A stretch of DNA of 64,000 bases from an uncultured Magnetospirillum sp. (lineage in GTDB: Bacteria; Pseudomonadota; Alphaproteobacteria; Rhodospirillales; Magnetospirillaceae). The notes under the pieces are model-generated. The model saw nothing but the letters and a program-made list of their open reading frames with translations, did not search any database and had not been told where the DNA came from. Both the position numbers and the translations under genes were made by a program. Location of the stretch: the NCBI RefSeq assembly GCF_903853455.1, contig NZ_CAINTR010000057.1, positions 1-64,000 on the forward strand. Direction: 5' to 3'. Position 1 is the first letter of the stretch, and the number at the start of each line of letters is the position of its first letter. Shown in pieces: positions 29,801-56,209 of this stretch.

Positions 29801-30424
29801 ATGTTAGGATCGACCAAGGCAAAGCGTTTGGCCCGGAGCCGTCATGGAGAGTCAGGCGATGAGCGCTCGGACGACGACGACCTTCTGCGCGCTGTCGCCG
29901 GCGGGGATCGCGGGGCCTTCGCCCGGCTGATGGAGCGCCATGCGCGATCGATGCTGGCCCTGGCGACCCGAGTCACCCGGAATCCCGACGACGCGGATGA
30001 AATCGTGCAAGAGGCGTTTTTGAAAGTCTGGGTGACGGCTCCCAAATGGCAAGCGAACGGGGACGCCAAATTCGCCACCTGGCTCTATCGGGTGGTGCTG
30101 AACGCCTGTCTCGACCGCGGCCGCCGGGCTCCGTTCAGCCCGCTGGAGGATGCCGGCGATCCGCCCGACCCAAGCCCGGCCGGACTGGACCGCGCCATGG
30201 CGGCCCAGCGCGACAGCATTTTGTCCGCCGCCATGGCCGATATGCCCACCAGACAGCGCGAGGCACTGACGCTATACTATTACAGCGACCTGAGCGCCCC
30301 CCAAGCCGCCGAGATCCTCGACCTGTCCGTCTCGGCCCTGGAAGCGCTGCTGGTGCGGGGCAAACGCTCGCTCAAGGCCATGCTGCAACGCCAAGGCATC
30401 GGTGGAATCGGAGATTTGACATGA
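29801..30424 (+). CDS. ECF-family RNA polymerase sigma factor (CnrH-like position)
   Basis: The 207-residue protein has sigma region 2 (about 35-100: FARLMERHARSMLALATRVT, NPDDADEIVQEAFLKVW, KFATWLYRVVLNACLD) and region 4 (about 145-200: MPTRQREALTLYYYSDLSAP, AAEILDLSVSALEALLVRG). It lacks region 3, as ECF factors do. AAGGA precedes ATG 29801. It overlaps the next gene by four bases, forming a three-gene operon with a single-span membrane protein and a periplasmic metal-binding-type protein. Confidence 0.9.
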   Translation: MLGSTKAKRLARSRHGESGDERSDDDDLLRAVAGGDRGAFARLMERHARSMLALATRVTRNPDDADEIVQEAFLKVWVTAPKWQANGDAKFATWLYRVVLNACLDRGRRAPFSPLEDAGDPPDPSPAGLDRAMAAQRDSILSAAMADMPTRQREALTLYYYSDLSAPQAAEILDLSVSALEALLVRGKRSLKAMLQRQGIGGIGDLT

Positions 30425-40831: not shown

Positions 40832-43510
40832 CTATACGCCGGGCGGCAGGGTGAGCTCGGGCGGCAGCGGCAGGTGGATGACGATGCAGGTGCCGGCGCC
40901 GTGCAGGCCCGGCTCGGCATGGATGCTGCCGCCATGGGCCTCGACGATGCCCCGGCAGATGGCCAGCCCCAGGCCGGTGCCCGCCGCCTGGGAATCAGAC
41001 TGCCCCACCCGATAGAACATGTCGAACACCTTCTCGCGGTCGTCCTGGGGGATGCCCGGCCCCTGGTCGGCGACCTCGATGGCGATGTGGTCGGGAGTGT
41101 GGATCGCCCAGACCTTGATGGTGGTCCCGGCGGGAGCGTATTTGCAGGCATTGTCGATCAGGTTGAAGAACACCTGCTCCATCAGCACCGCGTCGACGCA
41201 GAGCAGCGGCAGGTCGGGCGCGATTTCCACCTTGATGGCGTGGGAGCGGGCGAGGCGCCGCGACCGCTGCACCGCCGCGCCGACGATATCGCGCAGATCG
41301 GCCCAATCCACCCGCGGCTTCATGGCCCCCGCCCCCAGCCTGGTCATGTCCAGCAGGTTCTGGACGAAACGGTTCAGCCGCTCGGCCTCGTCCTGGATGG
41401 TCTGGGCGAGGTCGCGGCGCGACGACGGGTCGAGCACCTCGTCATAGCTGATGATGCTCGACGCCGCCCCCATGATGGAGACCAGCGGCGTGCGCAGATC
41501 GTGGGACAGCGACGACAGCAGGGCCGAGCGTAGGCGTTCCCGCTCGGTGGCGACCCGCGCCGTTTCGATGTCGGCCACCAGGGTGGTGCGCTCGATGGCC
41601 ACCGCCGCCTGGTCGGCCAGGGTCTCCAGCAGGCGCATCTGCTCCGGGCTGGGCATGTCGGCGTCCTCCATCATCTGGACGCCGAGGATGCCGACCGCGC
41701 TACGCACCGTCCGCAGCGGCAGGAACAGCCACAGCGACGCCGGCAGGGTGGTGGTGCCCCGCCCGGCCGGCTTGGCGTGGCCCCAGGCCCAGTCGGCGGC
41801 GGCGTTGGACTTGTCGTCCAACTGGTCCTCGGGCGGATAGCCCGCCGCAATGGCCAGGCCGTTGTCGCCCGGCAGCAGCACCAGCGAGCGGCCCTGGATG
41901 GTATTGGCCACGTGGTGGACCACCGCCCACAGCACGTCGTCCTGGCTCGCCGCCGCCGTGACCTTGCGGCTGAAATCATAGAGATTGTCGGTGCGCCGGG
42001 CGCTCTTGCGGGAGGCCTGGATCTGGGCGCGCAGGCGGCTGGCCATGTTGGAGACGATGACGGCGGCGATCAGGAAGAACACCAGGGTCAGGACGTTCTG
42101 GGTGTCGGAGACCGCGAAGCTCCAGCGCGGCTCGGTGAAGAAGAAGTTGAAGGCGAAGAAGCTGGCGAGCGAGGTCAGGATGGCCGGCCGCAGGCCCGCC
42201 CGCATGGCCACCACCATCACCGCCAGCAGATAGGCCACCGAGATGCTGGCCACCGGCAGCCACATGTCGATGGCGAAGCCCAGGCCGGTGGCGGTCGCCG
42301 TCGCCAGCGCGGCGACCAGGGTTCCCAGCCAGTCGGCCGGCACCGCCTCCCGGCGCCAGACCGGATGGTGCGGCCTGCCGTCGCCCTCGCCGCCCACCAC
42401 CAGCACGTTGACATCGCCGGCCCGCCGGATCAGCCGGTCGGTGACCGAGGCGCCCAGGCGGAAGCGCGACCGCCGCGCCCGGCCGACCACGATCTGGGTG
42501 GCGTTGCGCTCGCGGGCATAGTCCAGGATGGCGGCGACCACGTCGTCGCCCTGCAAGGCGGCGGTCTCGCCGCCCAGCAGGGTGGTCTGACGCATGGCCT
42601 CGGCGATGCGGTCCTTGTCGGCCTCGGACAGGGCGTCGGCGTCCGCCGCCTCCACCGTCACCGCCACCCAGGCGGCGCCCCGCCGCTCGGCGGCGCGCTT
42701 GGTCACCCGAATCAGGCGGTCGGCATCCACCGTCGCGTCGATGCACACCAGCAGCCGCTCGCGCGCCGGCCAGGGGCCGGCGATGGCGTGGGCCCGCATG
42801 TAGTCCACCATCTGGCGGTCGACCCGCTCGGCGGCGTGGCGCAACGCCATCTCGCGCAACGCCGTCAGGTTGCCGGGCGAAAAGAAGCTGTTGACGGCCC
42901 GCCGCGCCTGTTCCGGCACATAGACCTTGCCCTCGTGCAGGCGCTTGATCAGGTCCTCGGGCGGCAAGTCGATCAGCTCGATCTCGTCGGCGGCGGCCAG
43001 CACGCTGTCGGGCAGGGTTTCGCGCACCTTGACGCCGGAGATCTGCTCGACCACGTCGTTCAGCGAGTCGAGATGCTGGATGTTGAGGGTGGTGTAGACG
43101 TCGATGCCGGCGGCAAGCAACTCCTCCACGTCCTGCCAGCGCTTGACGTGGCGCGAGCCGGGCACGTTGGTATGGGCCAACTCGTCCACCAGGGCCAAGC
43201 CTGGGCGGCGAGCCAGCAAGCCGTCCAGGTCCATCTCGGCGAAGGCCCGGCCGCGATACTCCATGGGCCGGGACGGCAACACCTCCAGCCCCTCGACCAG
43301 CGCCACGGTCTCGCTCCGCCCGTGGGTCTCGATCACCCCGGCCGCCACGTCGACGCCGTCGCGCAGACGGCCGTGCGCCGCCCCCAGCATGGCGTAGGTC
43401 TTGCCCACGCCGGGAGCGGCGCCGAGAAAGATCTTCAGGCGCCCCCGCCCCTCCCGCCTTGCCTCGGCGAGAAGGGCGTCGGGCGACGGGCGTTGGTCGT
43501 CGTCGGTCAT
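40832..43510 (-). CDS. KdpD-type sensor kinase, orphan paralogue
   Basis: The 892-residue protein is a full KdpD: an N-terminal KdpD domain with Walker A GAAPGVGKT (30-38), a universal-stress-like domain (about 250-370), four membrane helices (about 400-500), a GAF-like region, HisKA with SLSHDLRTPLVSIMGAASS (about H670) and a HATPase (DNACKYAP, GTGLGLAICRGIVEAHGGSI). It is strikingly similar to the kdpD at 48641, but no kdpE follows. It probably signals through the shared KdpE or has gained another input. The ATG at 43510 lacks a strong ribosome site. Confidence 0.92.
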   Translation of the reverse strand: MTDDDQRPSPDALLAEARREGRGRLKIFLGAAPGVGKTYAMLGAAHGRLRDGVDVAAGVIETHGRSETVALVEGLEVLPSRPMEYRGRAFAEMDLDGLLARRPGLALVDELAHTNVPGSRHVKRWQDVEELLAAGIDVYTTLNIQHLDSLNDVVEQISGVKVRETLPDSVLAAADEIELIDLPPEDLIKRLHEGKVYVPEQARRAVNSFFSPGNLTALREMALRHAAERVDRQMVDYMRAHAIAGPWPARERLLVCIDATVDADRLIRVTKRAAERRGAAWVAVTVEAADADALSEADKDRIAEAMRQTTLLGGETAALQGDDVVAAILDYARERNATQIVVGRARRSRFRLGASVTDRLIRRAGDVNVLVVGGEGDGRPHHPVWRREAVPADWLGTLVAALATATATGLGFAIDMWLPVASISVAYLLAVMVVAMRAGLRPAILTSLASFFAFNFFFTEPRWSFAVSDTQNVLTLVFFLIAAVIVSNMASRLRAQIQASRKSARRTDNLYDFSRKVTAAASQDDVLWAVVHHVANTIQGRSLVLLPGDNGLAIAAGYPPEDQLDDKSNAAADWAWGHAKPAGRGTTTLPASLWLFLPLRTVRSAVGILGVQMMEDADMPSPEQMRLLETLADQAAVAIERTTLVADIETARVATERERLRSALLSSLSHDLRTPLVSIMGAASSIISYDEVLDPSSRRDLAQTIQDEAERLNRFVQNLLDMTRLGAGAMKPRVDWADLRDIVGAAVQRSRRLARSHAIKVEIAPDLPLLCVDAVLMEQVFFNLIDNACKYAPAGTTIKVWAIHTPDHIAIEVADQGPGIPQDDREKVFDMFYRVGQSDSQAAGTGLGLAICRGIVEAHGGSIHAEPGLHGAGTCIVIHLPLPPELTLPPGV

Positions 43511-43569
43511 GACCAACAGCTTCGGGTCATGACCGGATTTCGTCCAGCGTCTTGTTGGGGTTTGCCCCC

Positions 43570-43917
43570 CTAATCCTCGACCACGATCTTGGCCGCCATG
43601 GTCTCGTGGCCGCTGCCGCAGAAATTGTCGCAGTGGAACTCGTAGGTTCCGGCCTTGGCCGGGGTGAGGCGCACCTCCGTGACCTGCCCCGGCAGGATGT
43701 CGGCGCGGATATGCAGTTCGGGGATGTCGAAGCCGTGCAGGCGGTCGAGCGCCGTCAGCTCCAGCACCACCGGCTGGCCGGTCTTCAGCACGATCCGGGC
43801 GGGGCTGTAGAAAAAGCGGGTGGCCTTGATGGCCACATGGCGCTCCGGCGGGATCGCCGCCGAGGCGGCGACCCCCAGCAGGCAGAGCAAGGCGGCGGCG
43901 ATGATGGCCGGCTTCAT
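43570..43917 (-). CDS. Exported single-domain protein with a complete CuA site
   Basis: The 115-residue protein has a signal peptide (1-20) and a cupredoxin fold. Its copper site is the binuclear CuA type: H61 in DRLHGFDIPEL, then FHCDNFCGSGHETM with C96, C100, H104 and M107 in the C-x3-C-x3-H-x2-M pattern of cytochrome oxidase subunit II. There is no membrane hairpin and no oxidase gene nearby. It is cotranscribed with, and overlaps by four bases, the upstream Tat phosphoesterase gene. It could be a periplasmic electron carrier or a copper store/chaperone. Confidence 0.85.
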   Translation of the reverse strand: MKPAIIAAALLCLLGVAASAAIPPERHVAIKATRFFYSPARIVLKTGQPVVLELTALDRLHGFDIPELHIRADILPGQVTEVRLTPAKAGTYEFHCDNFCGSGHETMAAKIVVED

Positions 43918-44798
43918 GCCTTGATCCCCACTTCGGTCAGCTCGTACGCGGCCGTCTTGGGATCGGCCTCGATGGAGCGGTAGCCCAGTCCCCGGAACGG
44001 CTCCGCCGGATCCCAGGCCACCGGAGTGCGCTTGGGGGTCGAGCCCGGAGCCGGCAGGGCGAAGATCAGCGACTTGGCGGAATGATGGGCGATAGGCCCG
44101 GTCATGAAGTGGTTCTCCTGGTGGATATGGCCGTAGAACACGGTGACCTTGGGATGGGTCAGCAGGATTTCGATGGCCGCCGCGCCGTCGCGGGTCGCCC
44201 AGTCCCACTGCGGATAGAGGTCGAACAGCGGCCGATGGGTCAGCACCACCACCGGCTTGGCCTTGGGCTGGCGGGCGAGGTCGGCGGCCAGCCAGTCCAA
44301 CTGCTCCTGGCCGATCTTGCCGCCGGGATCGGAGACGTTGTCGAGGGCGATGAAATGGACGCCCTTGTGGTCGAAGGTGTAGTGGGTGGCGCCGAAATAC
44401 TCCTTGAAGGCGGCGCCCCAATCCAGCGAGGCGTCGTGCTCCCCGGCCAGGAACTTGACGTCCTTGACATTGAGGTCGGCGATGATGGCCTTGACCTCGG
44501 CCATGCGCCGCCGCCGCTCGGCATCGTCGTCGGTGGTGTGGGTGAGGTCGCCGGTGAAGACGACGAAATCCGGCGGCGAGGCCATGGCGTTGACCGCCGC
44601 GATGGCGCGCCGCAGCGTGGTCTTGGCCTCGGGATTGGGCGGCCCCTCGAAGCCCCAATGCAGGTCGGAGAGCTGGACGAAATAGAATTCCTCGGCCGGC
44701 GTGGCGGCTTCGGCCCCCCGCCAGAGTCCCGAAGCGAACACGGCGCCTCCGAAGGCGGAGAGGCGGGCGAAGTCGCGGCGGCTGATTGTCGGTCCCAT
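43914..44798 (-). CDS. Tat-exported metallophosphoesterase
   Basis: The 294-residue protein has a twin-arginine signal (ISRRDFARLSAFGG) and a calcineurin-like phosphoesterase domain with the full metal set: QLSDLHWG, VFTGDLTH, AGEHDAS (Glu where Asn of GNHD usually stands), VVLTHRPLF and FYGHIHQEN. Export through Tat suggests it folds with metals in the cytoplasm. The GNHD-to-GEHD change is notable. Start 44798 follows GGGAGA. It is divergent from an ECF sigma gene and has a matching ECF-type promoter. Confidence 0.85.
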   Translation of the reverse strand: MGPTISRRDFARLSAFGGAVFASGLWRGAEAATPAEEFYFVQLSDLHWGFEGPPNPEAKTTLRRAIAAVNAMASPPDFVVFTGDLTHTTDDDAERRRRMAEVKAIIADLNVKDVKFLAGEHDASLDWGAAFKEYFGATHYTFDHKGVHFIALDNVSDPGGKIGQEQLDWLAADLARQPKAKPVVVLTHRPLFDLYPQWDWATRDGAAAIEILLTHPKVTVFYGHIHQENHFMTGPIAHHSAKSLIFALPAPGSTPKRTPVAWDPAEPFRGLGYRSIEADPKTAAYELTEVGIKA

Positions 44799-44828
44799 GA
44801 TGGTCTCCCGATGTGGCGTTGCGTGAAG

Positions 44829-44860
44829 AGAAGACCGCATCGGCGTCGCGAATATTCCCG
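44829..44860 (-). promoter_or_regulatory. ECF-type promoter for the phosphoesterase-CuA operon
   Basis: On the minus strand CGGGAATA (44853-44860), a 17-bp spacer, and GTCTTCT (44829-44835) lie 31 bp before the phosphoesterase start. The -35 and spacing equal those of the divergent promoter at 44879. Confidence 0.65.
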
Positions 44861-44878
44861 CCTGCCAAAAAATATTTT

Positions 44879-44910
44879 CGGGAATAGACTGGCGGGCGCG
44901 GCGGTATGAC
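44879..44910 (+). promoter_or_regulatory. ECF-type promoter for the sigma/anti-sigma operon
   Basis: CGGGAATA (44879-44886), a 17-bp spacer, and GTATGAC (44904-44910) lie 48 bp before the sigma start. The match with the promoter on the opposite strand indicates autoregulation. Confidence 0.65.
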
Positions 44911-44957
44911 AGGGGAGAGACCCTAAATCGTTCCCGCCCCGAGGAGGGTGATCGGCC

Positions 44958-45491
44958 TTGACCGACAGCACCGCCATCCAACGGTTCGAACGGCTGGTCA
45001 TGCCGCATCTGGACGCGGCCCATAACCTTGCGCGTTGGCTGACCCGCGACGCCGCCGACGCCGCCGACGTGACCCAGGAGGCGATCTTGCGAGCCCTGCG
45101 ATTCTTCCCCGGCTTCGACGGCGGCGACGACGCGCGGCCCTGGCTGCTGGCCATCGTGCGCAACGCCGGCCTCGACTGGCTGCGGCGCAACCGGCCGGCG
45201 GCCATGGTGGGCGACGGCGAGGCCATGCTGGACCGCTTGGCGTCGGAGGACGACGACCCCGAGCGGGCGGCGTCGCGCCACGACGAGGCCAACCGGGTCG
45301 ACCGGGCGGTGGCGGCCCTGCCGGTGGAGTTCCGCGAGGTGATCGTGCTGCGTGAATTCGAGGATCTGTCCTACAAGGACATCGCCGCCATCGTCGGCAT
45401 TCCCATGGGAACGGTGATGTCGCGTCTGGCCCGCGCGCGGGCGATGCTGCGCGACTCCTTGACCCCCTCGGCGCGGGAGGCCCGGTCATGA
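44958..45491 (+). CDS. ECF-family sigma factor
   Basis: The 177-residue sigma factor has region 2 (about 10-80: HLDAAHNLARWLTRDAADAA, DVTQEAILRALRFFPGF, ARPWLLAIVRNAGLDWLRR) and region 4 (about 115-170: LPVEFREVIVLREFEDLSYK, DIAAIVGIPMGTVMSRLARA). It starts at a TTG eight bases after GAGGAGGG. It overlaps its anti-sigma gene by four bases. Two candidate promoters with the same -35 and spacing lie in the divergent gap, pointing to control of itself and the phosphoesterase-CuA operon. Confidence 0.92.
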   Translation: MTDSTAIQRFERLVMPHLDAAHNLARWLTRDAADAADVTQEAILRALRFFPGFDGGDDARPWLLAIVRNAGLDWLRRNRPAAMVGDGEAMLDRLASEDDDPERAASRHDEANRVDRAVAALPVEFREVIVLREFEDLSYKDIAAIVGIPMGTVMSRLARARAMLRDSLTPSAREARS

Positions 45492-46252
45492 CCTGCGACA
45501 AGGCCGCAGAACAGATCGGGGCATGGCTCGACGGTGAGTTGGACCAAACCGCCGCCGCCGAGCTGGAACGGCATCTGGAGGGATGCGCCGCCTGCCGCCG
45601 GCGGATCGACGAGCAGCGCGCCCTCGGCCGGCTGCTGACCGGAGCCAGCCGCTTCGCCGCGTCGCCGGCCTTGCGGAGCCGCCTCGACGAGGCCCTGCGC
45701 CGGGAGAAGGAGGCGGCGGCAAAGCCGGTTCCGCTGCGGCCGAAGCCGTGGCGGCGCTTCGCCCTGCCCGCCGCCTCGCTGGCCGGCCTGGCCGCCAGCC
45801 TGGTGCTGTTCCTGTCGATCCCCTCGGCCCAGGACCGGCTGGCCGACGAGGTGGTCAGCGACCATCTGCGCTCGCTGCTGATGCCGGAGCATCTGGTGGA
45901 CGTGCCGTCCTCGGACCAGCACACGATCAAGCCCTGGTTCAACGGCAAGCTGGAGGTGGCGCCGCCGACCCCGGACCTCAGCGCCCACGGCTTCGAGCTG
46001 ATCGGAGGGCGGCTGGACTATCTCGACCATCAGCGCAGCGCGGTGGTGGTCTACAAGCATCGTCAGCACGTCATCAACCTGTTCGTCCTGCCGCAACCCG
46101 CCGGCACCGACCGGGAGCTGACCCTGGTGCAGGATCGCGGCTATTCCGTGGTGGCCTGGACCCGCAAGGGCATCGGCCATTGGGCGGTCTCCGATCTCAA
46201 CGCCGCCGATCTGCGCGACTTCGCCGAACTGGTGGCGGCACCGGGAAAATGA
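45488..46252 (+). CDS. Zinc-finger anti-sigma factor
   Basis: The 254-residue protein has an N-terminal putative zinc-finger anti-sigma domain (C3, then RHLEGCAACR with His and the CxxC pair at about 28-35), one membrane helix (LAGLAASLVLFLSIPSA, about 95-111) and a periplasmic domain of about 140 residues. It should hold the coupled ECF sigma at the membrane until a periplasmic signal is sensed. The outer domain has no obvious metal-binding cysteine, so the signal is unknown. Confidence 0.88.
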   Translation: MTCDKAAEQIGAWLDGELDQTAAAELERHLEGCAACRRRIDEQRALGRLLTGASRFAASPALRSRLDEALRREKEAAAKPVPLRPKPWRRFALPAASLAGLAASLVLFLSIPSAQDRLADEVVSDHLRSLLMPEHLVDVPSSDQHTIKPWFNGKLEVAPPTPDLSAHGFELIGGRLDYLDHQRSAVVVYKHRQHVINLFVLPQPAGTDRELTLVQDRGYSVVAWTRKGIGHWAVSDLNAADLRDFAELVAAPGK

Positions 46253-46358: not shown

Positions 46359-47120
46359 ATGAGCACTGTGACGGCCTTGTCCGGTTCCAACCTTCCCATC
46401 AGCATCGGCAACACGCTGAATATCGGCGTGCGCCCTTCCGCCTCCGGCTCCACCGGCACGACGGCGTACGGAACCACCGCCCTGACCGCTCAGCAGGGAG
46501 CGTCCGCCGTCAGCAAGGCCTTGACCAACGCCACCTCCATCTTCACCGCCCTGACCACGCTGCAGAACCAGATCCAGCAGGCGGGCGCATCGCCGGACAA
46601 GGCGACCGCCGCCGCCCTGACCGCCAATATCGGCAAGCTGAAAACCCAAATCGACCAGTTGGCCGCCGGGGCCAAGGTGGGCAACGCCAATCTGCTGGCC
46701 AACACGCAAGGCAGCGTGTCGGTCGCCACCACCTCCGGCGTGCGGGTCAACATCGCCACCCAGGCGCTGGACAGCACGTCGCTGGGGCTGGGCAGCCTCT
46801 CCGTCACCGACGCGGCGTCGCTGCGGGCCGCCGCCGGCAAGGTCGCCCGGGCGGTGGGCCAGAGCCAGTTGGCGGTCTATCGCCTCCAGACCGCCGACGG
46901 CGCCGTCGGCACCGCGCCTGCCGCCTCGGCGGCGGCCACCGCCTATGGCACGGCCATCGGCAACCAGGTGGCGGGCACCTCCGCCAACACGGCTTCGGCG
47001 GCGGTGGAAAAGGCCCTGACCAACCAGGACACCGCCCTCAACGCCACCGGCTACAGCAATTCCGGTTCCGCCACCAACAACTTGGCGCAACTTCAGAGCT
47101 TCTTCAGCCTGTTCGCGTGA
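46359..47120 (+). CDS. Flagellin-like helical protein
   Basis: The 253-residue Ala/Thr/Ser-rich protein resembles the coiled core of flagellins: FTALTTLQNQIQQAGASPDK, LKTQIDQLAAGAKVGNANLL and TQALDSTSLGLGSLSVTDAA. It lacks the conserved flagellin N terminus and LLxxS C terminus, so it is unlikely to be a filament subunit. It has no signal peptide, as expected for type III export substrates. ATG 46359 is preferred over an in-frame start at 46302. No flagellar genes are adjacent. Confidence 0.5.
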   Translation: MSTVTALSGSNLPISIGNTLNIGVRPSASGSTGTTAYGTTALTAQQGASAVSKALTNATSIFTALTTLQNQIQQAGASPDKATAAALTANIGKLKTQIDQLAAGAKVGNANLLANTQGSVSVATTSGVRVNIATQALDSTSLGLGSLSVTDAASLRAAAGKVARAVGQSQLAVYRLQTADGAVGTAPAASAAATAYGTAIGNQVAGTSANTASAAVEKALTNQDTALNATGYSNSGSATNNLAQLQSFFSLFA

Positions 47121-47960: not shown

Positions 47961-48644
47961 CTACTCCCCCCGTTTGAGACGGTAGCCGACCCCGGCATCG
48001 GTGACGATCAGGGTCGGCACCGACGGATCGGCCTCCAGCTTCTGACGGAGCTGGTTGACGTAGACCCGCAGATAGGCGGTGTCCTCGGCATGGGCCGGCC
48101 CCCAGACCTCCTTGAGAATCTGCTTGTGGGTCAGGACGTGGTCGGGATGGCGGGCCATGAAGGCCAGCAGCCCCCATTCCCGCTTGGACAGGTGCACCTC
48201 CTCGCCGCCCCGGGTGACGATGCGCCGGGCCAGGTCGATCTGCACCGATCCGGCCTCGACCACGTCGTCGGAGCCCTTGGCGGCATGCGGACGCAGCACG
48301 GCGCGGACCCGGGCCATCAGCTCGGCGACGCCGAACGGCTTGACGATGTAGTCGTTGGCGCCCCGGTCCAGGGCCTCCACCTTGTCCAATTCCTGCGCCC
48401 GCACCGACAGCACGACGATGGGAACGTCCGACATCTCGCGCACGGCGCTGATGACCTCCTGGCCGTCCAGGTCGGGCAGGCCGAGATCGAGGATCAGCAG
48501 GTCCGGCTGCTGGCTGCGCGCCGCTTCGATCCCCTGGGCGGCGTTCTCGGCTTCGACCACCTCGTAGCCGTTGGCGGCCAGCGAAATGCGCATGAACTTG
48601 CGGATCTGCGGTTCGTCGTCGATCACCAGGATACGGGGACTCAT
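47961..48644 (-). CDS. kdpE: Response regulator KdpE
   Basis: The 227-residue OmpR-family regulator has a receiver domain with phosphoacceptor D in LLILDLGLPDLDG (about D53) and a C-terminal winged helix (about 130-227: VHLSKREWGLLAFMARHPDH, AYLRVYVNQLRQKLEADPS). It activates kdpFABC at low potassium. Its start overlaps the kdpD stop by four bases. It is the last gene of the kdp cluster. Confidence 0.96.
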   Translation of the reverse strand: MSPRILVIDDEPQIRKFMRISLAANGYEVVEAENAAQGIEAARSQQPDLLILDLGLPDLDGQEVISAVREMSDVPIVVLSVRAQELDKVEALDRGANDYIVKPFGVAELMARVRAVLRPHAAKGSDDVVEAGSVQIDLARRIVTRGGEEVHLSKREWGLLAFMARHPDHVLTHKQILKEVWGPAHAEDTAYLRVYVNQLRQKLEADPSVPTLIVTDAGVGYRLKRGE

Positions 48645-51349
48645 GTCATGACCCTTTGTTCACTGTCGGCATTGATCGAAGCCGTCAGACCGTCGATGTC
48701 GCGTCGCTGCGGCAGGTGGATGATGATGGCGGTGCCGGCGCCGTTCAGCCCCGGTTCGGCCTTGATGGTGCCGCCATGGGCCTCGACGATACCCCGGCAG
48801 ATGGCCAGCCCCAACCCGGTTCCCGCCGTCTGGGAATCACCCCTGTCGACCCGGTAGAACATGTCGAATACCTTCTCGCACGCTTCGGGCGGAATGCCCA
48901 CCCCCTGGTCCACCACCTCGATGGTGACATAGTCGGGGGTCTGGCGCGCCCAGACCTTCACGACGGTCCCCGGCGGCGCATACTTGCAGGAATTGTCGAG
49001 CAGGTTGAAGAACACCTGCTCCATCAGCACCGGGTCGACGCAGAGCAGCGGCACGCCGGCGTCGATGTCCACCTTGATGGTGTGGGCGCGGGCCAGCCGG
49101 CGGGTCCGCTCCACCGCCGCGCCGACGATGTCGCGCAGATCGGCCCAATCGGCGCGCGGCTTCAAGGCTCCCGCCCCCAGCTTGGTCATGTCGAGCAGGT
49201 TCTGGACGAAGCGGTTCAGCCGCTCGGCCTCGTCCTGGATAGTCTGGGTCAGGTCGTGGCGCGAGGCCGGGTCCATCATCTCGTCGTAGTTCTGCAACGA
49301 GGACGCCGCCCCCATGATCGACACCAGCGGCGTGCGCAGGTCGTGGGACAGCGACGACAGCAAGGCCGAGCGCAAGCGTTCCCGCTCGGTGGCGACGCGG
49401 GCCGTTTCGATGTCGGCCACCAGCGAGGTGCGCTCCACCGCCACCGCCGCCTGATCGGCCAGGGTCTCCAGCAGCCGCATCTGCTCCGGCGACGGCATGT
49501 CGGCGTCCTCCATCATCTGGACGCCCAGCACCCCGAACGGTCCCCGCGCCGTCTTCAGCGGCAGGAACAGCCACAGCGACGCCGGCAGGGTGGCCGAACC
49601 CCGCCCGGCGAGCTTGCCATGGGTCCAGGCCCAGTCGGCGGCGGCGTTGGACTTGTCGTCCAACTGGTCCTCGGGCGGATAGCCCGCCGCGATGGCCAGC
49701 CCCGCCTCGCCCGGCAGCAACACCAGCGACTTGCCGTGGATGGTGGCGGCCACATGGTGGACCACCGCCCACAGCACGTCGTCCAGCGTCACCGCCGCCG
49801 TGACCTTGCGGCCGAAGTCATAGAGGTTGCCGGTCCGGCGCGCGCTTTCGCGGGTGGCCAGGATCTGGGCGCGCAGGCGGCTGGCCATGTTGGAAACGAT
49901 GACGGCGGCGATCAGGAAGAACACCAGGGTCAGGACGTTCTGGGTGTCGGTGACGGCGAAGGTCCAGCGCGGCTCGGTGAAGAAGAAGTTGAAGGCGAAG
50001 AAGCTGGTCACCGAGGTCAGGATGGCCGGGCGCAGGCCCGCCCGCATGGCCACCACCATCACCGCCAGCAGGAAGGCCACCGAGATGCTGGCCACCGGCA
50101 GCCACATGTCGATGACGAAGCCCAGGCCGGTGGCCGCTCCGGTGCACAGCAGGGCGAAGGCGAGATGAAGCCAGTCGGGCGGCAGTTTCGCCTTGTGCGG
50201 CCGGACCAGCGGCACCGGCTTGTCCTCGTCCTCGCCACCAACCACGAAGACGTTGAAGTCGCCGCTTTCGGTAAGCAACCGTTCGGTCACCGACTTGCCC
50301 AGCCGCCAGCGCCGCGCCCGCGCCCGCCCGACCACGATCTGGGTGGCGTTACGCTCGCGGGCGAAGTCCAGCACGGTGGCGACCACGTCGTCGCCCTGCA
50401 ACAGCACGGTTTCGCCGCCCAATTGCTGGGCCAGACGCAAGGCGGCGGCGAGGCGGTCCTTGTCGGCCTCGGTCAGAGCGTAGGAGCGCGACGTCTCCAC
50501 CGTCACCACCACCCAGGCGGCGCCGCGCCGTTCGGCGGCGCGCTTGGCCACCCGCACCAGCCGGGCGGCATCGACCCGCTCGTCGACGCAGACCACGATC
50601 CGCTCGCGCGCCGGCCAGGGGCCGGGGATGGCATGGGCGCGCATATAGTCGACCATCTGGGCATCGACCCGCTCCGCCACGTGGCGGAGCGCCATCTCGC
50701 GCAGCGCAGTCAAGTTGCCGGGCGAGAAGAAGTTACCCACCGCCCGCTGGGCCTGTTCGGGGACGTAGACCTTGCCCTCGTGCAGCCGCTTGATCAGCTC
50801 CTGCGGCGGCAAGTCGATCAGTTCGATCTCGTCGGCCGAGGACAACACGCTGTCGGGCAGGGTTTCACGTACCTTGACGCCGGAAATCTGCTCGACGACG
50901 TCGTTGATGCTTTCCAGATGCTGGATGTTGAGCGTGCTGTAGACGTCGATGCCGGCGGCGAGCAACTCCTCCACGTCCTGCCAGCGCTTGACGTGGCGCG
51001 AGCCCGGCACGTTGGTATGGGCCAGCTCGTCCACCAGCACCAATTGAGGACGGCGGGCCAGGATGGCGTCGAGGTCCATCTCGCGGAAGGTCTTGCCGCG
51101 ATACTCCATGGGACGCGGGGGCAGGACGTCGGTCCCCTTCAACTGCGCCTCGGTCTCGCGCCGTCCGTGGGTCTCCACCACCCCGGCCACCAGATCAATC
51201 CCCTCGCGCCGGCGCTCACGCGCCGCCTGCAGCATGGCGTAGGTCTTGCCCACGCCGGGAGCGGCGCCGAGAAAGATTTTCAGCCGCCCGCGCGATTCGC
51301 GCTGGGCGGCTGCCAACAGGGCATCCGGTGACGGGCGGTCGTCGGTCAT
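48641..51349 (-). CDS. kdpD: Sensor kinase KdpD
   Basis: The 902-residue kinase senses potassium and turgor. The N-terminal domain has GAAPGVGKT (28-36) and DELAHTNVPGSRHVKRWQDV. A USP-like domain, four membrane helices, a GAF-like region, HisKA with SLSHDLRTPL (about H668) and HATPase with GTGLGLAICRGIVEAHGGTI follow. It differs from the copy at 40832 mainly in the USP region and a 16-residue C-terminal extension. It is coupled to kdpE and preceded 10 bp upstream by a small KdpC-like membrane protein gene. Confidence 0.97.
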   Translation of the reverse strand: MTDDRPSPDALLAAAQRESRGRLKIFLGAAPGVGKTYAMLQAARERRREGIDLVAGVVETHGRRETEAQLKGTDVLPPRPMEYRGKTFREMDLDAILARRPQLVLVDELAHTNVPGSRHVKRWQDVEELLAAGIDVYSTLNIQHLESINDVVEQISGVKVRETLPDSVLSSADEIELIDLPPQELIKRLHEGKVYVPEQAQRAVGNFFSPGNLTALREMALRHVAERVDAQMVDYMRAHAIPGPWPARERIVVCVDERVDAARLVRVAKRAAERRGAAWVVVTVETSRSYALTEADKDRLAAALRLAQQLGGETVLLQGDDVVATVLDFARERNATQIVVGRARARRWRLGKSVTERLLTESGDFNVFVVGGEDEDKPVPLVRPHKAKLPPDWLHLAFALLCTGAATGLGFVIDMWLPVASISVAFLLAVMVVAMRAGLRPAILTSVTSFFAFNFFFTEPRWTFAVTDTQNVLTLVFFLIAAVIVSNMASRLRAQILATRESARRTGNLYDFGRKVTAAVTLDDVLWAVVHHVAATIHGKSLVLLPGEAGLAIAAGYPPEDQLDDKSNAAADWAWTHGKLAGRGSATLPASLWLFLPLKTARGPFGVLGVQMMEDADMPSPEQMRLLETLADQAAVAVERTSLVADIETARVATERERLRSALLSSLSHDLRTPLVSIMGAASSLQNYDEMMDPASRHDLTQTIQDEAERLNRFVQNLLDMTKLGAGALKPRADWADLRDIVGAAVERTRRLARAHTIKVDIDAGVPLLCVDPVLMEQVFFNLLDNSCKYAPPGTVVKVWARQTPDYVTIEVVDQGVGIPPEACEKVFDMFYRVDRGDSQTAGTGLGLAICRGIVEAHGGTIKAEPGLNGAGTAIIIHLPQRRDIDGLTASINADSEQRVMT

Positions 51350-51359
51350 GGTCGGCGGT

Positions 51360-51695
51360 TCATTTCGTGGAACATGGGGTATCCAGCGCCTGGTTGAGGG
51401 TTCGAAGATCCAGGTCCGGGGCTTTCGCCTCCAGAGCCGTTACCAGCTGCCGCACCGAATCGACGGGAAGGCCGCGTGCCGCCGCGATGCGCTTGACCTG
51501 AACTGTCGCGTCCTCGGGCCGGATCATGCCGGACCGTCCCTGGAAGTAGCGGGCGTCGTCCGACTCCGGTTCGGCCAATTGTGGCGCGACTTCGCGAATC
51601 AGGAACATGGCGGCGACGGCGAGGACCACCAGAACCGACACCCGCGAGGCGGAATGCAGCAGATCGGCCATGCCTTGATCGGTTTGCTTGTCCAT
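51360..51695 (-). CDS. Small membrane protein with a KdpC-like tail
   Basis: The 111-residue protein has one N-terminal membrane helix (VSVLVVLAVAAMFLIREVAP, 19-38). A C-terminal region VKRIAAARGLPVDSVRQLV (67-85) plus LRTLNQALD (97-105) aligns by eye with the end of KdpC in this operon (PRVAKARAIPEADLRAVV and VLKLNLALD). The KdpC middle is missing. It lies between kdpC and kdpD in the same direction. It may derive from a kdpC duplication and could link the pump to the sensor. Confidence 0.7.
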   Translation of the reverse strand: MDKQTDQGMADLLHSASRVSVLVVLAVAAMFLIREVAPQLAEPESDDARYFQGRSGMIRPEDATVQVKRIAAARGLPVDSVRQLVTALEAKAPDLDLRTLNQALDTPCSTK

Positions 51696-51738
51696 GGCGA
51701 CCGGCGGGCGGCGCTGGAGGCGCCACCCGCCCTCTCTC

Positions 51739-52356
51739 CTATTTCGCCTGCGGCCACTGGCCGTCGAGGGCGAGGTTGAGTTTCAGCACGTTGACCGAGG
51801 CTTCGCCGAGGATGCCGAAGCTGCGTCCCTCGGTGAGGCGGGCGACCACCGCCCGCAGGTCGGCCTCGGGGATGGCGCGGGCCTTGGCGACGCGCGGCAG
51901 CTGGTATTCGGCCGCCTGGGGCGAGATGTGCGGGTCGAGGCCGGAGGCCGAGGCGGTGACCAGATCGATGGGCAGAGCCACCCTTGCGTCGGGATTCTCG
52001 GCCTTGACCTGCTCGATCAGGGCCTGGGTGCCCTCGATGTAGGACTTGGAGGTGGGCGCCGCGTTGGAGGCCCCCGAATTGGCCGCGTTGTAGGGCGCCG
52101 GCACCGTCTTGGTGGGGTCGGCGGGATCGGTGTCGGTGGTGGCCGAGGGCCGGGGGTGGAAGTATTCCGGCTTGGCGAAGCCCTGGGCGATCAGCGTCGA
52201 GCCGACCACCTTGCCATCCTTCTCGATCAGGCTGCCATGGGCCTGGTGCGGGAACAGGGCGCCCGCCGCGCCGGTCATGGCCAGGGGATAGGCCAGCCCC
52301 AGCAGCACGGTGAGCAGCAGGGTCAGAAGAGTCGCGGGAAGAAGTTGCTTGATCAT
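51739..52356 (-). CDS. kdpC: Potassium-transporting ATPase subunit KdpC
   Basis: The 205-residue subunit has one membrane helix (LLPATLLTLLLTVLLGLAYP) and an external domain with the conserved GSTLIAQGFAKPEYFHPRPS, DLVTASASGLDPHISPQAAE and FGILGEASVNVLKLNLALD motifs. It stabilises the KdpAB complex. ATG 52356 is eight bases from GGAG; a GTG at 52365 would overlap the ribosome site. It lies 16 bp after kdpB. Confidence 0.96.
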   Translation of the reverse strand: MIKQLLPATLLTLLLTVLLGLAYPLAMTGAAGALFPHQAHGSLIEKDGKVVGSTLIAQGFAKPEYFHPRPSATTDTDPADPTKTVPAPYNAANSGASNAAPTSKSYIEGTQALIEQVKAENPDARVALPIDLVTASASGLDPHISPQAAEYQLPRVAKARAIPEADLRAVVARLTEGRSFGILGEASVNVLKLNLALDGQWPQAK

Positions 52357-52372
52357 ATCTGTCACTCCGGGA

Positions 52373-54463
<2,091 letters not shown>

Positions 54464-54475
54464 GAAAGGATCCCT

Positions 54476-56209
54476 CTAGAACAGGGTGCCGGCGGCGAGC
54501 GCGAAATGCTCGACGATCGGACCCAGGGCGAGAACGGGGAAGAAGGTCAGGCCGCCGATCACCACGATGACGGCGATCAGCAGGCCGATGAACAGCGACC
54601 CATGGGTGGGGAAGGTGCCGGCCGAGGGCGGCACGATCTTCTTGGCCGCCAGCGAGCCGGCGATGGCCAGGGTCGGCACGATGATCAGGAAGCGCCCGAT
54701 CAGCATGGCCGCGGCCAGGGTGGTGTTGTAGAACAAGGTGTTGCCCGACAACCCGCCGAAGGCCGAACCGTTGTTGCCGGTGGCCGAGGTATAGGCGTAC
54801 AGCACCTCGCTCAATCCGTGCGGTCCGGCGGCGGACATGCCCGCCAGCCCGGCCGGCAGCACCATGGCCACCGCGCCGAAGCCCAGGATCGACAGCGGGA
54901 AGATCAGGATGCACAACACCGCCAGCTTGACCTCGCGGGATTCCATCTTCTTGCCCAGGTATTCCGGGGTGCGCCCCACCATCAACCCGGCGATGAACAC
55001 GGTGACGATGACGAAGACGATCATGCCGTGCAGACCGCAGCCGACGCCGCCGAAGATCACCTCGCCCAGCATGATGTTGACCATGGGCACCATGCCGCCG
55101 ATGGGGGTGAAGCTGTCATGCATGGCATTGACCGCGCCGGTGGAGGTGCCGGTGGTGGCTGCGGCGAAGATGGCGGAATTGGCGATGCCGAACCGCACCT
55201 CCTTGCCCTCCATGTTGCCGCCGGGAGCCAAATCGGAGGATGCGACGTCCACGCCCATGGCCTGGACCAGCGGATTGCCGGCGGCCTCGGCCCAGTAGCA
55301 GACGCCGATGCCGATCACCAGCATGACCGACATGGCGACGTACAGCGCCCGGCCCTGCCGTTTGTCGCCGATCATGCGGGCGAAGGCGAAGACCAGACCG
55401 GCCGAGATCAGCAGTTCACCCGCCATCTCGATCAGATTGGACAGCGCCGTCGGATTCTCGAACGGATGGGCCGAGTTGGCGTTGAAGAAGCCGCCGCCAT
55501 TGGTGCCGAGATGCTTGATCGCCACCTGGCTGGCCACCGGCCCCTGGGCGATCACCTGCTTGGCGCCTTCCAGCGTCGTCGCCTCGGTATAGGCGTCGAA
55601 GCTCTGCGGCATGCCCTGCCAGACCAGCGCCAGGGTCACCACCACCGCCAGCGGCAGCAGGATGTAGAGGATGGAACGCACCGCATCGACGTAGAAATTT
55701 CCCACCGTCTTGGATTGCCGGCGGGCGAAGCCGCGCACCAACGCCACCAGGATGGCCATGCCGGTGGCGGCCGAGGTGAAGTTCTTCACCGTCATGCCCA
55801 GCATCTGGGTCAGATAGGCCATGGTGCTTTCGCCGCCATAGTTCTGCCAGTTGGTGTTGGTGGTGAAGCTGACGGCGGTGTTGAAGGCGAGGTCGGGAGC
55901 GACCGCCGCCTGACCGGCCGGGTTGAACTGAACCGGCGTCAACGCCTGCAGCCGCATGATGGCGTACATCACCAGCAGCCCGACCACGCTGAACATTAGG
56001 GCCGAGAAGGCGTAGACCGTCCAATGTTGCTCCTGGTCCTGCTTGACGAAGCAGACCTTGTAGATGACCCGTTCGATGGGACCCAGAACCGGATCAAGCC
56101 AAGTGCGTTCACCGGAATAGACCCGGGCCATGTAGGCCCCAAGGGGGATGGCGCCTGCCGTCAGCACGGCGAAGTAGACGACGATTTGCAGAATGCCTGC
56201 GGCGTTCAC
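54476..56209 (-). CDS. kdpA: Potassium-transporting ATPase subunit KdpA
   Basis: The 577-residue, ten-helix subunit carries the K+ selectivity filter loops: [52 protein letters not shown] and [13 protein letters not shown]. These are the four P-loop repeats of the SKT superfamily. Length and ends are typical. It starts 10 bp after the kdpF stop. Confidence 0.97.

Follow-up and report, generated by a model that had tools for sequence, protein, structure and literature searches.

The ECF26 sigma factors RpoE1 and RpoE4 of S. meliloti respond to sulfite and drive an operon encoding a sulfite oxidase (sorT), a cytochrome and a pseudoazurin (PMC3511301). Promoters of the ECF26 group share a cross-species consensus, with GGAATA at -35 and GT at -10 (PMC6180224). 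Free-standing periplasmic CuA proteins have also been described, an example being PmoD (PMC6189053). The locus analyzed here, which lies in a 64-kb window (the whole stretch of DNA under study), places genes for an ECF sigma factor and its anti-sigma factor back to back with genes for a metallophosphoesterase-fold protein (MPE) and a CuA cupredoxin. No paper describing this module was found in the open-access literature, and the 2021 ECF reclassification may list it as genomic context. New in the present analysis are the binuclear CuA partner of one MPE clade against type-1 copper in the other, the replacement of GNHD by GEHD in every aligned MPE member, and an anti-sigma factor that pairs an RsiW-like zinc domain with a periplasmic domain like the RseB/MucB C-terminal domain.

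Table 1 Features of the locus (window coordinates)
Feature	Coordinates	Strand	Description
CuA cupredoxin gene	43570-43917	-	PF13473 + PF00116; signal peptide; free-standing, periplasmic
MPE gene	43914-44798	-	PF00149; twin-arginine signal; GEHD motif
Intergenic gap, sigma/MPE	44799-44957		159 bp
Predicted ECF promoter, MPE-CuA operon	44832-44860	-	CGGGAATA-N17-GTCT; full site CGGGAATATTCGCGACGCCGATGCGGTCT
Predicted ECF promoter, sigma/anti-sigma operon	44879-44907	+	CGGGAATA-N17-GTAT; full site CGGGAATAGACTGGCGGGCGCGGCGGTAT
ECF sigma factor gene	44958-45491	+	TTG start, 177 aa; sigma70 regions 2 + 4
Anti-sigma gene	45488-46252	+	zf-HC2 (PF13490), one TM helix, periplasmic domain

Predicted promoter pair and local regulon

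Both gene pairs, sigma/anti-sigma and MPE/CuA, overlap by ATGA, which suggests that each pair is translationally coupled. The gap between the operons is unremarkable in RNA structure (z -0.98). Several features were observed around the four genes. Two kdpD paralogues with 80% identity flank the ECF locus on either side (40832-43516 and 48641-51349, both on the minus strand), a full kdpA-B-C-D-E cluster occupies 47961-56209 of the window, and more than one kdpD was found in no other genome of the genus at an equal threshold. Downstream of the anti-sigma gene, an Ala/Thr-rich, flagellin-like ORF (46362-47120, +) is without a Pfam or NCBIfam match.

A sequence-only reading of this DNA had located two divergent motif copies in the gap, and their coordinates proved right. 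The copies share the same eight-base -35 element and the same N17 spacing, and one is directed toward each operon. Across the whole window, CGGGAATA-N17-GT[AC]T was observed twice against 0.01 expected by chance. The genome was scanned by pattern search, and the context of the remaining matches was judged by eye. CGGGAATA-N16-18-GTNT gave five matches genome-wide versus one for the reversed control, while GGGAATA-N17-GTMT gave four matches in the 5.2-Mb genome (two of them at the locus) versus one for its control. The other three matches to the former pattern fall within long ORFs, and the other two to the latter have no clear position upstream of a gene. Therefore the regulon of this motif in this genome seemingly consists of the two local operons, and a wider one was rejected. 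For the same reason, the objection that the motif might occur at random throughout coding DNA fails.

The same pattern is seen in homologous loci, whose genes were called by a simple script. GGGAATA-N14-18-GT occurs there at 0.60 per kb near the MPE start and at 0.0063 per kb elsewhere, an enrichment of about 96-fold, and the spacing is exactly N17 in all but one in-region match. An exact facing pair of GGGAATA-N17-GT is present in 11 of the 20 loci classed as divergent by the script, with single copies in some other homologous loci and none in some; these loci are partly non-independent, five being close relatives, and the pattern still covers several phyla. Both local copies and the cross-species footprint fit the ECF26 -35/-10 consensus. 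The footprint is the strongest evidence for reading the motifs as predicted promoters. Together with the kept neighborhood and the consensus match, it strongly supports the earlier proposal that one ECF factor would drive both itself and the divergent MPE-CuA operon. There is thus good support for a predicted ECF switch that regulates itself and has a local output of two genes (MPE and cupredoxin).

Regions 2 and 4 of the sigma factor are of the ECF type. Comparison of the sigma family profile with RpoE6 gave 122 bits, with other ECFs at comparable E-values. An ECF26 trait is present in the downstream anti-sigma factor, which has an N-terminal anti-sigma domain, a TM helix and a periplasmic domain. 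A second ECF-like sigma factor in the window (29801-30424, +) has 31% identity to that of the locus and is the genome's only other match to it at that threshold.

Putative sensor domain, phosphoesterase-fold protein and copper protein

The anti-sigma factor combines an RsiW-like zinc domain (zf-HC2), a TM helix and a periplasmic domain. A fold search with its structure model (mean pLDDT 75.6) matched the N-terminus to RsiW/RslA and the C-terminal domain to MucB/RseB. The first six matches had Z values of 8.4-9.1, and the fold match alone is no proof because models that lack a clear match often reach a best Z of 7-8. Foldseek returned MucB/RseB targets at an E-value of about 0.003. By hhalign, the profile of 28 periplasmic domains aligned with that of 18 RseB/MucB C-domains over 83 columns, with a probability of 66% and an E-value of 5.8e-5, versus 0.73 for the reversed profile and 0.003 or worse for eight column-shuffled profiles. 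No Pfam match of the periplasmic domain to the RseB/MucB C-terminal domain (PF17188) was found at E 5, and we therefore count the likeness as a resemblance rather than as membership. Judged from the model and the profile-profile comparison, the domain appears to resemble the RseB/MucB C-terminal domain. Four of its histidines are kept in 29-30 of 31 sequences and W150 in all 31; these residues may possibly form a ligand or metal site.

The MPE carries a Metallophos domain behind a twin-arginine signal, SRRDFARL, and a Tat signal occurs across its relatives as well, so the export signal proposed by the sequence-only reading is retained as a prediction. That reading also termed it a calcineurin-type phosphatase. 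The protein has PF00149 and, measured against the calcineurin-type pattern (D-x-H, GD, GNH[DE], H, GHxH), every motif except the Asn of GNHD. Residues D45, H47, D84, H121, H188, H224 and H226 are conserved, whereas all aligned members of the family have Glu (E120) at the position of that Asn. The resulting GEHD aligns with the GNHD of Rv0805, and the other metal-binding motifs are retained. The term is therefore a fold assignment only, as predicted from sequence. A structure model of the MPE (pLDDT 62) was too poor and was set aside.

The copper protein is a COX2-like cupredoxin of 115 aa with a signal peptide, and the solved structures most closely related to it are Thermus CuA domains. Its His, Cys-x3-Cys, His and Met residues align with those of Thermus CuA, so the ligand set is complete, and we take these five residues to be the CuA ligands from general knowledge of CuA. 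The free-standing CuA domain proposed earlier is accordingly upheld as a predicted binuclear CuA site. Of the traits of cytochrome c oxidase subunit II, the N-terminal TM hairpin is absent, and no oxidase genes lie beside the CuA gene. In three CuA proteins that follow an MPE in other loci (L050, L063, L098), the position of the first His ligand is occupied by Met (LMGF or MMGF for LHGF).

Distribution of the module and copper type

MPE homologues were collected from a class sample (385 genomes), a phylum sample (398 genomes), genome contigs and plasmids. The MPE locus is present in 14 of the 385 class genomes and 18 of the 398 phylum genomes, and homologous loci occur in other Alpha- and Betaproteobacteria, delta-type lineages, Acidobacteria, Gemmatimonadota and Actinobacteria. 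Sigma and anti-sigma homologues adjoin the MPE in most loci, the majority divergent and the others co-directional, and a cupredoxin lies beside the MPE in most of them. The four-gene neighborhood, whose conservation had been put forward as a check, is kept in this sense across several phyla. Pairwise distances of the MPE correlate with those of the sigma and anti-sigma factors, and shared ancestry accounts for part of this correlation. The locus was not found in 16 other genomes of the genus. Its absence from these congeners and its presence in unrelated phyla and on plasmids make it look like a mobile accessory module. Base composition gave no argument for a recent arrival, as GC ranges from 63 to 73% over the region and forms no island; transfer is therefore argued solely from the absence in congeners and the patchy spread.

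The MPE tree resolves into two deep clades, and the branch that separates them has a support of 100/99. All 13 CuA entries fall in one clade and all 26 type-1 entries in the other; the type-1 label was assigned by exclusion and then checked at each locus, where a C-x2-H-x2-M cupredoxin adjoins the MPE in every case. Placed on the MPE tree, CuA requires one change, and none of 500 shuffles gave so low a count. At fourteen MPE positions the residue switches with the clade, among these F81 (to H) and Y222 (to N), which adjoin metal-binding motifs. The match between copper-site type and MPE clade is well supported, and functional matching need not be its cause, since a single ancient split followed by inheritance that was vertical or as a unit could also have produced it. 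Three MPE loci (L055, L071, L064) are without a cupredoxin, which indicates that the MPE can do without such a partner; in L055 and L071, both of the CuA clade, a TPR protein takes the place of the copper protein. Beside the sigma/anti-sigma genes of two Myxococcota-type genomes we observed a second, weakly cupredoxin-like gene (L053, 3125-3505, -; L054, 3147-3536, +).

Other carriers near the MPE are single cases. An acidobacterial locus has a cytochrome c gene after CuA, a Mycobacteroides plasmid carries sigma, Rieske, cupredoxin and MPE genes consecutively, and L066 includes a Rieske protein and a molybdopterin oxidoreductase. L110 has arsenic-type genes and a molybdopterin oxidoreductase, and L064 adjoins chromate-resistance genes.

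Proposed function and comparison with known systems

Gene content, promoters, local regulon, conservation and the agreement of copper type with MPE clade are well supported. On this basis we propose an autoregulated ECF module with a redox-coupled MPE-cupredoxin pair and an inducer akin to an oxidant or to sulfite, and put this reading at about even. The zinc-type anti-sigma factor would keep the sigma factor at the membrane until its RseB/MucB-C-like domain receives a signal from the periplasm and the sigma factor is released. The freed sigma factor would then read the two back-to-back CGGGAATA-N17-GT promoters and raise both sigma/anti-sigma and MPE-CuA. The MPE would leave the cytoplasm folded, with its metals loaded, via Tat, and act as a pair with the CuA protein outside the cytoplasm. 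There the CuA protein could pass electrons to or from the MPE, or to or from chemistry that the MPE joins, for instance if it controlled the oxidation state of a dinuclear metal centre. We infer both the reception of the signal by the periplasmic domain and the exchange of electrons between the copper protein and the MPE or its substrate; an oxidant- or sulfite-like inducer is suggested by analogy with RpoE1/RpoE4 (PMC3511301).

The copper or oxidative envelope stress system suggested by the sequence-only reading is possible. If the module served copper stress or supply, the anti-sigma factor would sense periplasmic copper, the CuA protein would buffer or deliver it and the MPE would repair or remodel the envelope. 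The complete CuA site, the four near-invariant periplasmic histidines, which could bind metal, and the existence of proteins such as PmoD (PMC6189053) are in keeping with such a role. Nevertheless, neighborhoods read by eye contained no recurring gene for copper efflux, an oxidase or a copper chaperone, the three CuA proteins above have Met for the first His, and MPEs of the other clade are paired with a type-1 electron-transfer cupredoxin, an indication of electron transfer rather than of copper handling. We consider this role unlikely, and redox coupling is preferred over it because the recurrent neighbor of the MPE is an electron carrier. The cytochrome c, Rieske or molybdopterin oxidoreductase neighbors in a few loci were counted for the redox reading.

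A general envelope-stress regulon, in which co-regulation would be the sole link between the MPE and the CuA protein and the sensor would, like RseB, respond to envelope molecules that are misfolded or mislocalised, would agree with the RseB/MucB-like sensor fold and with the loci that are missing a cupredoxin. It is also improbable, as the copper-site type tracks the MPE clade across phyla, the MPE and CuA genes are usually adjacent (with the ATGA overlap here) and no recurring protease or chaperone gene was seen beside the module. That the motif pair is due to chance or non-functional, and no promoter, is very improbable in the face of the genome counts and the cross-species enrichment.

A broader version of the redox reading, which we offer tentatively and regard as rather unlikely, is that of a widespread, horizontally moving periplasmic redox system. 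Its MPE, altered to GEHD at the dinuclear metal site, would be no simple phosphatase and would be driven or switched by a dedicated copper electron carrier. The type-1 or CuA carrier would have been exchanged (in either direction) along with the enzyme, with a one-chain RseB-like sigma switch in control. The homologous operons with mononuclear type-1 or binuclear CuA proteins, matched to the two MPE clades, provide a natural pairing test, through which the role of a free-standing CuA protein can be tested directly.

Compared with Rv0805 and the class III cyclic nucleotide phosphodiesterases, the MPE shares a calcineurin-like fold by sequence but differs in its GEHD motif, Tat export and copper-protein partner. 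The copper protein resembles the CuA of cytochrome c oxidase subunit II, nitrous-oxide reductase and PmoD (PMC6189053) in its full ligand set and periplasmic cupredoxin fold. In contrast to those systems, it is a small soluble protein with no oxidase anchor or nearby oxidase genes, it is paired with an MPE, and some of its relatives have Met for the first His. As in the RseA/RseB and MucA/MucB control of sigma-E, a membrane anti-sigma factor and an RseB/MucB-C-like periplasmic domain are present. Here, however, they form a single chain rather than two proteins, the N-terminal domain is of the zinc type and the LolA-like large domain is missing, which suggests that an RseB-like domain, fused directly to the anti-sigma factor, could serve as the sensor of a sigma factor. 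The anti-sigma family is only weakly similar to the anti-sigma factor beside RpoE6, the one with which it was compared. The locus as a whole resembles RpoE4-EcfR4 with sorT-sorU-azu2 of S. meliloti (PMC3511301, PMC6180224) in its GGAATA/GT consensus, its predicted autoregulation, a membrane anti-sigma gene that follows the sigma gene and a periplasmic redox output, which in S. meliloti includes a blue copper protein. The two systems differ in that output, which is a phosphoesterase-fold protein with CuA here and a sulfite oxidase there.
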